From: an uncultured Gellertiella sp. | GTDB lineage: Bacteria > Pseudomonadota > Alphaproteobacteria > Rhizobiales > Rhizobiaceae | NCBI RefSeq assembly: GCF_963457605.1 | Contig: NZ_OY735139.1 | Span: 3,440,001 to 3,504,000, forward strand | Reading direction: 5' to 3' | Length of the DNA stretch: 64,000 bases | Part shown: positions 14,891 through 63,493 of the stretch, in pieces | Layout: the number at the start of each line of letters is the position of its first letter | Position numbering within the stretch: position 1 is the stretch's first letter | Program-made: the position numbers and the translations under genes | The notes under the pieces: model-generated | Seen by the model: the letters and a program-made list of their open reading frames with translations, nothing else | What the model was told of the DNA's origin: nothing | Databases searched by the model: none

Positions 14891-15011
14891 TGCCATTCTT
14901 CGACCCGTCTGCGTTGCCGCCACAATCGCAATGGCCGCTCTCCTGATCCTCTGCTTCTGGGGCTGGCAGCTGGTGAACTGGGCGACATTCTGGAAGCTGT
15001 TCTTTTCCTAG

Positions 15012-15110
15012 AGTCTGTCAGGTTCATATTGAACCAGCCAGACTCTGGCTCTCATTGCTGTCGTTTGTCTTTTCGGGAAAACCGGATTCCACTTTTCCCT
15101 GACAAACTCT
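15012..15110. repeat. IS630-related MITE, family A copy 1 (99 bp)
   Basis: Begins TA-GAGTCTGTCAGG and ends CCTGACAAACTC-TA. The left 35 bp are a hairpin, imperfect in this copy, and the right part ends in the conserved GGGAAAACCGGATTCCAC ... TTTCCCTGACAAACTC. It is flanked by TA on both sides. Terminal 11 bp match the IS630 element at 62306. Same length as copies 2 and 5. Confidence 0.92.
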
Positions 15111-20337: not shown

Positions 20338-20436
20338 GAGTCTGTCTGGTTCACATTGAACCAGACAGACTCTAATTCTCTTTGTTTTCGTTTGTCCTTT
20401 CGGGAAAACCGGATTCCACTTTTCCCTGACAAACTC
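20338..20436. repeat. IS630-related MITE, family A copy 2 (99 bp)
   Basis: TA-GAGTCTGTCTGG ... CCTGACAAACTC-TA. The left 35 bp form a perfect hairpin: 16-bp arms GAGTCTGTCTGGTTCA / TGAACCAGACAGACTC with loop CAT. It ends 27 bp before the DUF1491 start codon and so separates it from the PG-binding gene. A short GATCTTTGGTATAAT just before it resembles an end of family E. Confidence 0.93.
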
Positions 20437-25236: not shown

Positions 25237-25410
25237 GAGTCTGTCAGGTTCAGACTGAACCAGACAGACTCGAGCACTCATTGTTTTCGTTTGTCATTTC
25301 GCTCAAACCCGTTTGAGCGCTCAAACGGGTTTGAGCTCTCAAACGGGTTCGAGCGGGAGAACCGGATTCCAAACGCAAAACGTCGTTTGCGTGTTTTCCC
25401 TGACAAACTC
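25237..25410. repeat. IS630-related MITE, family A copy 3 (expanded, 174 bp)
   Basis: Same ends as the 99-bp copies (GAGTCTGTCAGG ... CCTGACAAACTC-TA). The left flank is TC rather than TA. Two internal expansions are present. One is an array of GCTCAAAC / GTTTGAGC inverted units after the TTTCG motif. The second is an insertion inside the TTCCACTTTTCCC part (AACGCAAAACGTCGTTTGCG). It lies upstream of the DUF1214 gene on one side and the chemoreceptor on the other. Confidence 0.9.
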
Positions 25411-29508: not shown

Positions 29509-29640
29509 ATGACGGAGACAGCGGAAAATGCAGCCGATCAGGCGGAAGGTGCCGCCGCCCGGGAGATCGATGCGAAGATCGCAGCGCTCGGCGACTGGCG
29601 CGACGCTGGCGCGGGTGCGGGGGCTGATCCTCGGGGCTTG
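29509..29640 (+). pseudogene. Truncated, frameshifted DUF1801-like gene fragment
   Basis: Starts MTETAENAADQAEGAAAREIDAKIAALGDWRD, like the N-terminus of DUF1801 (YdhG-like) proteins. Reading in a shifted frame then gives ATLARVRGLIL, the expected continuation, so a small deletion near 29598 broke the frame. All later sequence is missing: repeat family B begins at 29641. Assigned from the IDAKIAALGDWR...TLARVRGLI pattern. Confidence 0.6.
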
Positions 29641-29797
29641 ATTCCGACATTTGCTACCGTCCGCTTTACCCTCGAGAGCAAATGTCGGAATCATGAAAAC
29701 CACTGGTAACACTATGATTCTAGTGGAATTTGCGAATTTGACATTAGATCCTCGAGATCGCGGCGAATGGGCATCGAATGTCAAATTCATTCCACTG
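29641..29797. repeat. 157-bp two-hairpin repeat, family B copy 1
   Basis: First hairpin TTCCGACATTTGCT ... AGCAAATGTCGGAA (29642-29692). Second hairpin arms start at AGTGGAATTTGCGAATTTGA (about 29732) and end at GTCAAATTCATTCCACT (about 29794). A near-identical copy is at 46010-46165. No coding content. Confidence 0.92.
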
Positions 29798-36630: not shown

Positions 36631-36765
36631 GAGTCTGTCTGGTTCACATTGAACCAGACAGACTCTAATTCTCATTGTTTTCGTTTGTCTTTTCGCGCAA
36701 GCAAGTTTGCGCGCGCAAACAAGTTTGCGCGGGAAAACCGGATTCCACTTTTCCCTGACAAACTC
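36631..36765. repeat. IS630-related MITE, family A copy 4 (expanded, 135 bp)
   Basis: TA-GAGTCTGTCTGG ... CCTGACAAACTC-TA with a perfect left hairpin. The expansion consists of TTGCGCGC / GCGCGCAA-type palindromic units at the same internal position as in copy 3. It ends 16 bp before the ATG at 36782, next to the ribosome site AAAAGGAG. Confidence 0.93.
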
Positions 36766-45950: not shown

Positions 45951-46009
45951 TTGCCTGATGGGCGGACCGGGTGTGTGCACATTGACTGTACGTAGACTGG
46001 TGGTTTGAG

Positions 46010-46165
46010 TCCGACAATTGCTACCGTCCGCTTTACCCTCGAGAGCAAATGTCGGAATCATCAAAACCACTGGTAACACTATGATTCTAGTGGAATTTAC
46101 GAATATGACATTCGATCCTCGAGATCGCGGCGAATGGGAATCGAATGTCAAATTCTTTCCACTGG
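46010..46165. repeat. 156-bp two-hairpin repeat, family B copy 2
   Basis: Near-identical to 29641-29797 (about 10 differences over 156 bp). It begins TCCGACAATTGCTACC and ends TTCTTTCCACTGG. Inserted between gp8 and gp9 genes of the GTA cluster. Confidence 0.93.
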
Positions 46166-61875: not shown

Positions 61876-62205
61876 ATGAACAATTGCCGGCAGGAAAGTG
61901 ACGCCATCTGGCAGGCATTGACCACGGTCAACGCGCCGCTTCCGCCTCCCATCGACGCAGACACACTTCTGGCCTGCCTTCGTCCCGGATGTACGCAGCG
62001 GCAGTGGCGACCGCATGTGCGCGCCTTTTTCGGTGAGGTCGGAGTGGAAATCCTGATGGACATGGTTGTCGAAGGCTCGGTCACGTTTGATGATCTTGCA
62101 AAGGCCATCTCCTTCTGGGATGTCGACGAGGACTATGAAAATGCGCGATGGATACGGGAAATGGCTGCCATCCCGGTGGCAAAAGCTGATGGAGCTGACG
62201 CTTAG
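61876..62205 (+). CDS. Small hypothetical protein, 3' end formed by MITE
   Basis: 109 residues. MNNCRQESDAIWQALTTVNAPLPPPIDADTLLACLRPGCTQRQWRPHVRAFFGEVGVEILMDMVVEGSVTFDDLAKAISFWDVDEDYENARWIREMAA. Not recognised. The stop codon TAG (62203-62205) is the TA target plus first G of the MITE, so the natural C-terminus has been replaced. The length of the loss is unknown. Confidence 0.55.
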   Translation: MNNCRQESDAIWQALTTVNAPLPPPIDADTLLACLRPGCTQRQWRPHVRAFFGEVGVEILMDMVVEGSVTFDDLAKAISFWDVDEDYENARWIREMAAIPVAKADGADA

Positions 62206-62303
62206 AGTCTGTCAGGTTCATATTGAACCAGACAGACTCTAGGGCCCTTTGTTTTCGTTTGTCCTTTCGGGAAAACCGGATTCCACTTTTCCCTGACAAA
62301 CTC
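62205..62303. repeat. IS630-related MITE, family A copy 5 (99 bp)
   Basis: TA-GAGTCTGTCAGG ... CCTGACAAACTC-TA. Its right TA (62304-62305) is also the left TA of the IS630 element. Left hairpin intact. Confidence 0.95.
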
Positions 62304-62395
62304 TAGAGTCTGTCAGTGACAAATTGAATCTGGAGGGATTCCAATTTTGTGTTTTTTCTGATTCAAGCATCTTGCTGGAAGGGAGGCCAGCAAGG

Positions 62396-62758
62396 ATGGT
62401 GAAGCCTCTTTCTCTTGATTTGCGGGCCCGGGTGGCGGATGCGTTGACGGGTGGCATGACTGTTCGCGCGGCGGCGGAACGGTTTGGAATATCGGTCGCC
62501 TCGGCGGTTCGGATCGGTCAGCTTTCGCGCTCGGGCAAAGGGCTGCTGCCATCGAAAATTGGCGGCCATGTCAAGCCCATTCTGAGCGGTGACCTGGCAG
62601 AGAAGGTGCGCCAGCGGCTGGCCGCAAAGTCTGACTGGACGGTCAGAGCCCTTGCCGCCGATCTTCAGTCGTTTGGCATCCATGTATCACACGATACGGT
62701 GTGGCGGTTCCTGCGCAGCCAGGGAAATACCTTTAAAAAAAACGCTGGTAGCCAGTGA
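62396..62758 (+). CDS. IS630 transposase, N-terminal part (orfA)
   Basis: 120 residues from ATG 62396. MVKPLSLDLRARVADALTGGMTVRAAAERFGISVASAVRIG is the helix-turn-helix DNA-binding region, then a second HTH-like part (KSDWTVRALAADLQSFGIHVSHDTVWRFLRSQG). The frame ends soon after eight A residues (62735-62742). Confidence 0.9.
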   Translation: MVKPLSLDLRARVADALTGGMTVRAAAERFGISVASAVRIGQLSRSGKGLLPSKIGGHVKPILSGDLAEKVRQRLAAKSDWTVRALAADLQSFGIHVSHDTVWRFLRSQGNTFKKNAGSQ

Positions 62759-63341
62759 GCAGGACAGGCCGAAAGTGGCAAGGTTCAGAGCGCGTTGGAA
62801 GGCCCATCAGCACCGGATTGATCCGGAACGGCTTGTTTTCATTGATGAGACCTGGGTCAAGACCAACATGACGCGGACCTGCGGCTGGTGCCCGCGCGGT
62901 CAGCCCCTGATCGCGAAGGTGCCGCATGGCCACTGGAAAACACTGACCTTTTTGGCCGGGCTGCGGCGCAACGGCATCGTTGCGCCTTTCGTGCTCGACG
63001 GCCCCATCAACAGTATCGCCTTTACAGCATGGGTTCAGCAATGTCTTGTCCCCGTGCTGAAAGCCGGTGACATTGTCGTCCTCGACAACCTGGGCAGCCA
63101 CAAATGCAAGGCCGCCAGCGAGGCGGTGCGGGCACAAGGGGCTCGCATGTTCTTTCTGCCGCCCTATTCACCAGACCTCAATCCAATCGAAATGATGTTC
63201 TCAAAGCTGAAAACGCTCGTCCGCAAAGCCGAGGAGCGAACCATTGAAACGACTTGGCGTCGCATCGGAGAACTCCTCAAAGAATTTACCCCTGAAGAAT
63301 GCTCGCGATACATCACGCATGCAGGATATGCTTCTATCTAA
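62734..63341 (+). CDS. IS630 transposase, DDE catalytic part (orfB)
   Basis: The frame opens before the A8 tract and continues LVASEQDRPKVARFRARWKAHQHRIDPERLVFIDETWVKTNM (first catalytic Asp), VVLDNLGSHK (second Asp), PYSPDLNPIEMMFSKLK (Glu). It lies +1 relative to orfA. A one-base skip at A8 joins the two into one transposase of about 320 residues, either by programmed slippage or because a mutation added one A. No strong own start codon near the junction. Confidence 0.88.
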
Positions 63342-63493
63342 AACTGACAGACTCTAGAGTTTGCCCCGACCCCGCAACATTACCAATATTTCATGCGCCA
63401 GACAGTTACTGGTAAGGTCTCTGCCCCTATATCTCTGTCATCAACTTCACCGCCACCGGTAAACGGCGGAGACAAGAGAGAAGGCAGACGACC

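Follow-up and report, generated by a model that had tools for sequence, protein, structure and literature searches.

Results

The window analysed here, a stretch of 64,000 nucleotides from a Gellertiella genome, carries five miniature elements (MITEs) that very probably belong to a non-autonomous, polar family that an IS630-family transposase moves in trans. Recent copies would be driven by the resident 1049-bp insertion sequence (IS) or a very close relative, and the older ones would have been moved by an older relative.

The miniature elements of the window and their genomic family

All five MITEs and the IS announced in a preliminary description of this DNA are present, on the forward strand and at the coordinates given there, except that copy 1 was placed one base off (15012–15110). 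It lies at 15011–15109, measures 99 bp (a left hairpin, L, then a right module, R) and is flanked by CTA and TAT. Copy 2 (20338–20436) is also 99 bp long, with flanks TTA and TAG. Copy 3 (25237–25410) has 174 bp, i.e. 99 bp plus three 18-bp palindromic units and a 21-bp hairpin, and copy 4 (36631–36765) has 135 bp, i.e. 99 bp plus two 18-bp palindromic units. Copy 5 (62205–62303, 99 bp) begins with a G that completes the TAG stop of the open reading frame (ORF) at 61876–62205, and 100% identical copies of it occur in the same genome at C2:2258137 and C2:911440. Flanking TA had been reported for all sides but one of copy 3, and this is indeed so: the exception is its left flank, TC, which is complementary to the inner flank GA. 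One copy adjoining the IS with a common TA was also correctly recognised; it is copy 5, and the TA is at 62304–62305.

The window elements all begin with GAGTCTGTC(A/T)G and finish with CTGACAAACTC, which read inwards is GAGTTTGTCAG. Compared with the IS end, this inward-read right end has one differing base. It had been overlooked that bases 1–35 of each element fold into a separate hairpin, and that the inner border of this hairpin again resembles an IS end. For copy 5 this L module is at 62205–62239, its outer 25 bp resembling IS630 right ends (GAACC at bases 21–25), and the core AAAACCGGATTCCACTTTT of the R module is at 62272–62290, with GAATC at bases 21–25 from the right end as in the IS630 left-end box; this core is present across the order.

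The genome-wide search proposed earlier places these elements in a large family. In the 4.17-Mb genome (G000, two contigs), the right-end pattern gave 131 matches and the hairpin pattern 157 forward and 152 reverse matches, a palindrome being scored about twice; the reversed-pattern control gave 0 in both cases. We worked with 84 single elements from fetched stretches and the window, drawn from among the matches listed and thus not all copies. They are those of 156 module clusters that have a simple pattern; clusters that are tandem, broken or partial lie outside, as does copy 5, which the script merged with the IS sequence. These elements are short (99–174 bp), non-coding and numerous, with the 35-bp hairpin on the left followed by the R module and its second hairpin. 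Exactly 99 bp was found for 43 of the 84, and the other lengths (117, 120, 135, 138, 153, 156 and 174 bp) mostly correspond to the addition of 18-bp palindromic units and/or the 21-bp hairpin. The MITEs are modular hairpins built in 18–21-bp steps, which is a new point of this analysis. The family also includes L hairpins standing alone, 45-bp palindromes that consist of two R ends, tandem L-R units with one common TA, and R-R-L strings. Pairwise identity among the 43 single 99-bp MITEs has a median of 0.909, and groups of 4, 3, 3, 2 and 2 are identical at separate places.

The IS630 element

The IS (62306–63354, forward strand) is one of five copies in the genome, 100% identical over 1049 bp. 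Its orfA (62396–62758) corresponds to the HTH DNA-binding part of the transposase (HTH_32 and partial NF033545), and orfB (62589–63341, homologous part from 62733) to a DDE domain with DD34E spacing in the alignment (DDE_3, PF13358, E 9.7e-33; NF033545, 153.9 bits for the orfB part with a cut-off of 100). All five copies are flanked by a duplicated TA, and both ends carry a 12-bp terminal inverted repeat, GAGTCTGTCAGT, as expected for the IS630 family. The right TA of the window copy is at 63355–63356, its site before insertion being CTAG. Another copy (L028) sits at an internal TA of a MITE, and the empty form, CACTAGAG, occurs in other MITEs. An A8 tract (62735–62742) lies between the orfA and orfB frames, which are offset by +1. 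The same arrangement is found in seven other IS examined, as A8 with KKN/KKT in L148, L200, L212, L214, L215 and L292 and as A7 with KKS/KKA in L235. Judged on sequence, the division into two frames suggests a conserved design for frameshifting or slippage rather than decay.

Besides this IS, the genome contains a second, IS630-like element (L200:672-1714, i.e. C2:1163271-1164313), whose DDE part is 50% identical; partial matches to it occur at four more places. Its ends, AAGCATGTC and GACATGCTT, resemble the tips that a core element of a different genome (L126) carries, and in L201 it adjoins a GAGCATTTCC palindrome. A pattern search of 438 kb found no R module with its tips.

Ends and subterminal boxes

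The IS ends in GAGTCTGTCAG on both sides. Allowing at most one mismatch, the window contains 16 matches to this tip versus 0.51 expected, a number reached by none of 100 shuffles. The L tip agrees with that of the IS over 11 of 11 bp in three of the five window copies and over 10 of 11 in the other two, and the R tip over 10 of 11 in all five. The R tips depart from the IS at base 5 (T in 81 of 84), which counts against the explanation we favour. A second signal lies at bases 21–25. GAATC occupies this position in 44 of 52 IS left ends and 61 of 84 MITE R ends, and in none of 52 IS right ends or 84 L ends. Conversely, GAA[GC]C is found in 81 of 84 L ends (R ends, 2 of 84) and 18 of 52 IS right ends (left ends, 0 of 52). 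The IS set comprises 52 distinct left ends from 57 IS630-type elements, namely 54 of 80 scanned loci plus three local ones; the 80 loci are the best 80 of 546, and the 26 with no confident ends were left out of the box counts. At bases 21–25, the contrast between the two MITE ends parallels that between the left and right ends of IS. Over its outer 25 bases, L agrees with right ends of GAGTCTG-type IS at up to 22 positions, and with that of the resident IS at 20. Beyond the tip, 9–11 of 14 bases match GAGTCTG-type IS versus a mean of 7.5 for IS with other tips; since the latter also reach 11 at most, this likeness marks the clade and not this IS.

An origin of the MITE as a simple internal deletion of this IS was considered and rejected, no IS-internal sequence being seen in the MITE. 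GANTC, the CcrM site, was likewise considered as an end signal and dropped, since it is missing from R ends.

Target site and duplication

TA flanks 67 of 84 L sides and 80 of 84 R sides. The 64 elements with TA on both sides were used for target and empty-site counts, the 20 of 84 lacking TA on one or both sides, which speak against the explanation we favour, being left out. The base before the TA is C or T in all 64, and the reconstructed empty site is YTAR in 56 of 64 (CTAG 21, TTAG 16, CTAA 10, TTAA 9), as compared with 6.5% of background TA sites (p about 1e-57). The IS copies occupy CTAG four times and TTAA once, i.e. YTAR in five of five. A direct view of an insertion is given by a MITE inside an unrelated repeat (L054). 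Its joined site has 8 matches in other copies of the repeat, 7 of them nearly full length; the filled GTGTCAC-TA-[99]-TA-GTGG corresponds to an empty GTGTTAC-TA-GTGG in three of four displayed copies, so that the TA is duplicated. The fourth reads CCAG, with CA in place of TA. MITEs and IS thus have the same target and the same TA duplication. No clean between-strain empty site was found. A candidate in Agrobacterium vitis was rejected as not clean: in the unfilled strain, CG78, CTAGAAG is retained on one side and the remainder of the spacer is different. In the anchor region the congeners have only 66–75% DNA identity.

Flanks that deviate from TA show a pattern of their own. For 121 L hairpins the side was known; in 10 of them the outer flank is complementary to the inner one over at least 5 bases (permuted mean 1.8, maximum 8 in 5000) and in 8 over at least 6 bases (permuted mean 0.67, maximum 4). 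Of 25 non-TA outer flanks, 14 are complementary to the inner flank. We infer from these sequences a hairpin-templated correction, which would explain the odd left flank of copy 3. In the L hairpins of L007, L010, L040, L056, L066, L072, L081 and L087, where the complementarity extends over 6 to 10 bases, it is possibly a sign of hairpin-templated mutation in the living cell.

Stop codons at the insertion sites

On either strand the first base is almost always G (83 and 80 of 84 elements), so that the duplicated TA followed by this G remakes TAG. For 25 of the 64 elements (39%), the re-made empty site is the exact stop codon of a coding-like ORF, compared with 37 of 348 YTAR control sites (10.6%; Fisher p 1.6e-7) and 236 of 5063 TA sites (4.7%). 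The effect is concentrated on one position: 28 stops fall on the TA, and the remaining 120 offsets within 60 bases together have 24, with at most 2 per offset. When only ORFs of 150 aa or more are considered, the counts become 18 and 17. The codons before insertion were TAG 21, TAA 14 and TAT 3 of 38. In six named plasmid regions examined, from 28 matching records, an annotated CDS ends on the junction in four, and on both sides in two. The window ORF at 61876–62205, which ends on the first base of copy 5, is absent from the heuristic gene calls. None of the five IS copies lies on a coding-like stop, which also speaks against the favoured explanation. In the open-licence literature searched, as far as its accessible text goes, no statement of stop-codon rebuilding by such elements was found.

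Adjacency of IS and MITEs

The position of the IS directly next to a MITE had been taken as evidence for mobilisation. Three of the five IS copies do abut a MITE border, but four of five lie at the rare CTAG, which makes the argument weak. CTAG is depleted in the window, which has 15 such sites versus 42.7 expected, and a MITE or IS border accounts for 6 of them. As the IS prefers CTAG, which is rare and found at MITE borders, it would often meet MITEs, and the adjacency is probably explained in this way. Adjacency alone is weak evidence and says nothing on parentage. In L028, a core-like element with other tips (GAGCATTTCC, about 1197–1298) lies beside the MITE holding the IS copy, so that three TA elements follow one another. 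Palindromic repeats of a second family (CTAGTGGAATGAATTTGACATTCG...) are present in the window on the reverse strand at about 29635–29783 and 45997–46150. More of its copies occur in the fetched stretches, often beside or around MITEs, and one IS copy abuts one of them (L039).

Distribution

The 99-bp query matched 12 of 101 genomes, most strongly, besides G000, G018, G058, G050 and G007, and gave no match in four congeners. The IS query matched 39 of 101 genomes, at full length only in G000 and G013 (74%). MITE copies in genomes with no matching IS had been named as an observation that would speak against mobilisation. This is partly the case: G007 has one MITE match and no IS match, and G050 one MITE match and only partial IS matches. 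As single copies, both are as old relics would be. Matches with no intact matching IS in G007, G050 and G018 nevertheless count against our explanation. Of 20 genomes searched with the hairpin pattern, 11 of them chosen via IS relatives, nine had a match; the loci examined, one per genome with two overlapping in G018, were seven IS ends and two MITEs (G018 and G058). The closest named IS relatives showed only IS ends and no MITE at the examined loci, a further point against our explanation. MITE matches were also obtained in 28 plasmid records, from Agrobacterium (12), Shinella (6), Rhizobium (4), Martelella (2), 'Roseateles' (2, one record being marked unverified), Allorhizobium (1) and Sinorhizobium (1).

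The 19-bp core is more widespread, being found with at most one mismatch in 69 of 151 genomes of the order (control matches, 7 in all). Many core loci have the L-hairpin/TTTGTTT/core layout with other tips, and others keep the core hairpin only. Among 109 distinct cores, drawn from among the matches listed and including a few from G000 itself, TA lies exactly 13 bases behind the core in 44, and another 44 have no TA within 9–16 bases. IS630-type elements of Alphaproteobacteria vary in their tips, mostly TA-GAGC. IS and core-element tips agree in G097 (GAGCGGGATCA for both) and disagree in G062, G077, G138 and G147. A search for a related IS in 12 core genomes found none in five (G044, G074, G092, G150 and G072). 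At 80 named loci, the strict script rule detected the core in only one. Head-to-tail core arrays with a constant period of 58–59 or 102 bp occur at G044:C9:100969-101193 (L144), G062:C182:6719-6913 (L310) and G074:C79:3053-3245 (L315); the search for a related IS gave just a broken one in G062 and none in G044 or G074, and these arrays perhaps grew by means other than transposition.

Discussion

That the IS "can or could mobilise" the MITEs, as the preliminary description put it, is supported at the sequence level by the common ends, the YTAR target, the TA duplication, the IS630-like subterminal boxes and the identical copies at separate sites. Because the IS copies are identical and the 99-bp MITEs have a median identity of 0.909, an earlier relative must have moved the older MITE copies. 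We infer that this IS, not an older relative, is the present driver. What is added to the earlier picture is the stop-codon effect, the polar two-box ends, the target and empty site, the modularity, the explanation of the adjacency and the order-wide core.

The MITEs could instead be moved by another resident TA-duplicating element, either the second IS630-like one or one resembling IS711, an IS5-type element, the IS having only the same target habit. A second IS630-like element is indeed resident, and IS711 is described as duplicating the TA of YTAR (PMC2266754). The ends of the second element are nevertheless different from GAGTCTGTCAG, and MITE tips and boxes match the type of the resident IS; we regard this origin as quite improbable. 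A different reading is that the MITEs no longer move and are retained vertically as structural or regulatory hairpins (bidirectional terminators or RNA-processing sites), their TA flanks being relics. Their folding is striking: three RNA folds, of both strands of copy 5 (z-scores -5.0 and -6.3) and of copy 4 (-9.8), are more stable than 200 of 200 shuffles, and among 55 distinct L sequences 89% of cells are paired with 14 double-change cells, versus 32–43% and 4–9 in slid controls. None of the 84 MITEs lies inside an ORF as called heuristically from GC by codon position (48 are intergenic, 30 overlap the end of an ORF and 6 lie at stretch edges), and 27 are between convergent, 10 between divergent and 41 between tandem genes. 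Vertical retention does not sit well with identical copies at unrelated sites, the absence of any match in the four congeners, variable length and an orientation to tandem genes that is unbiased (22 versus 19), and we find it unlikely. No Rfam family reached its gathering score in the window.

The stop-codon excess raises a separate question, as it could reflect only the survival of harmless insertions and neither element design nor targeting. YTAR sites are already coding-like stops more often than TA sites in general, and the IS copies, at the same kind of target, do not have this habit. Against this, the excess persists when YTAR sites are the reference and is sharp at one base. Selection and design do not exclude each other; it is owing to the terminal G that such insertions are harmless. 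We give survival alone even chances.

Returning to mobilisation by the IS630-family transposase, each MITE would combine a right-type end (the L hairpin) and a left-type end (the R module), each made of an 11-bp tip and a box at bases 21–25, both read by the transposase. Insertion takes place at the TA of YTAR with duplication of the TA, as the sequences show. They also show that, when the target TA starts a stop codon, the TA and the following G restore TAG, and that where convergent genes have a YTAR in common both stops can be rebuilt. This may be the reason that copy number could rise. The MITE borders would then offer CTAG, a favoured and rare target at which IS copies and further MITEs could pile up. 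Judging from element lengths, slippage may add to the internal palindromes of 18 and 21 bp, and the L hairpins may template their own flanks, as flank complementarity suggests.

The best-described parallel is RUP of Streptococcus pneumoniae, about 107 bp long with about 110 copies and TA termini, for which mobilisation in trans by IS630-Spn1 was proposed from the similarity of the terminal inverted repeats (TIR) and TA-containing targets (PMC2229807, PMC3049150). The MITEs here are also TA-bordered, present in at least 100 copies and endowed with a TIR like that of a resident IS630 element. They differ by being modular, by polar two-box ends, by the YTAR target and by stop-codon rebuilding, none of which is mentioned for RUP in the accounts cited (PMC2229807, PMC3049150). 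The view of the family as RUP-like and probably IS630-mobilised holds. In the account available, RUP and IS630-Spn1 are linked by the similarity of their ends and by TA targets (PMC2229807); here ends, inner boxes, target preference and an empty site tie the pair. BOX elements of S. pneumoniae, as described, also have modular ends, a variable number of inner units and elements inserted into one another, but with other modules and another proposed partner, ISSpn2 (PMC3049150). QMITE2 loci of Coxiella are described as insertion hot spots for IS1111, a different IS with different termini (PMC5896051). No paper on IS630-driven MITEs in rhizobia was found in the open-licence literature searched.

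Two groups of repeats in the order can be likened by description. Bru-RS1/2 of Brucella are palindromic repeats of 103–105 bp (table in PMC2267715), reported as hot spots for IS711, which duplicates the TA of YTAR (PMC2266754). In these respects they resemble the MITEs; IS711 itself differs, having 842 bp and 20-bp imperfect repeats (PMC2266754, PMC2267715). RIME and the AB and C motifs of rhizobia are mosaic palindromic intergenic repeats (Osteras 1995, cited in PMC2573895), as the MITEs are; RIME are annotated, in the source as cited, as repeats of unknown function. It is our guess that the RIME, AB and C motifs are identical with the order-wide core. We would tentatively go further, in what seems a possible rather than a probable reading: the mosaic palindromic intergenic repeats of the order, probably including RIME and Bru-RS, could form one IS630-driven superfamily. 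The 19-bp core would be its kept transposase-binding box, and the tips would be exchanged to fit the transposase at hand. The G-ended, TA-duplicating design would rebuild stops, including common stops of convergent genes, so that at least 100 copies are tolerated. Since tips agree in G097 but not in G062, G077, G138 and G147, the superfamily is a hypothesis.

The MITE/IS pair described here is ready for bench test. The preference of IS711 for Bru-RS has been ascribed to 'undetermined determinants' in the account available (PMC2266754), and CTAG borders offer an explanation for repeats of this kind acting as IS hot spots. Stop-codon rebuilding may be a simple reason for the high copy number of such elements, and the origin of the repeats could be put to the test, should the order-wide core be a box bound by the transposase.
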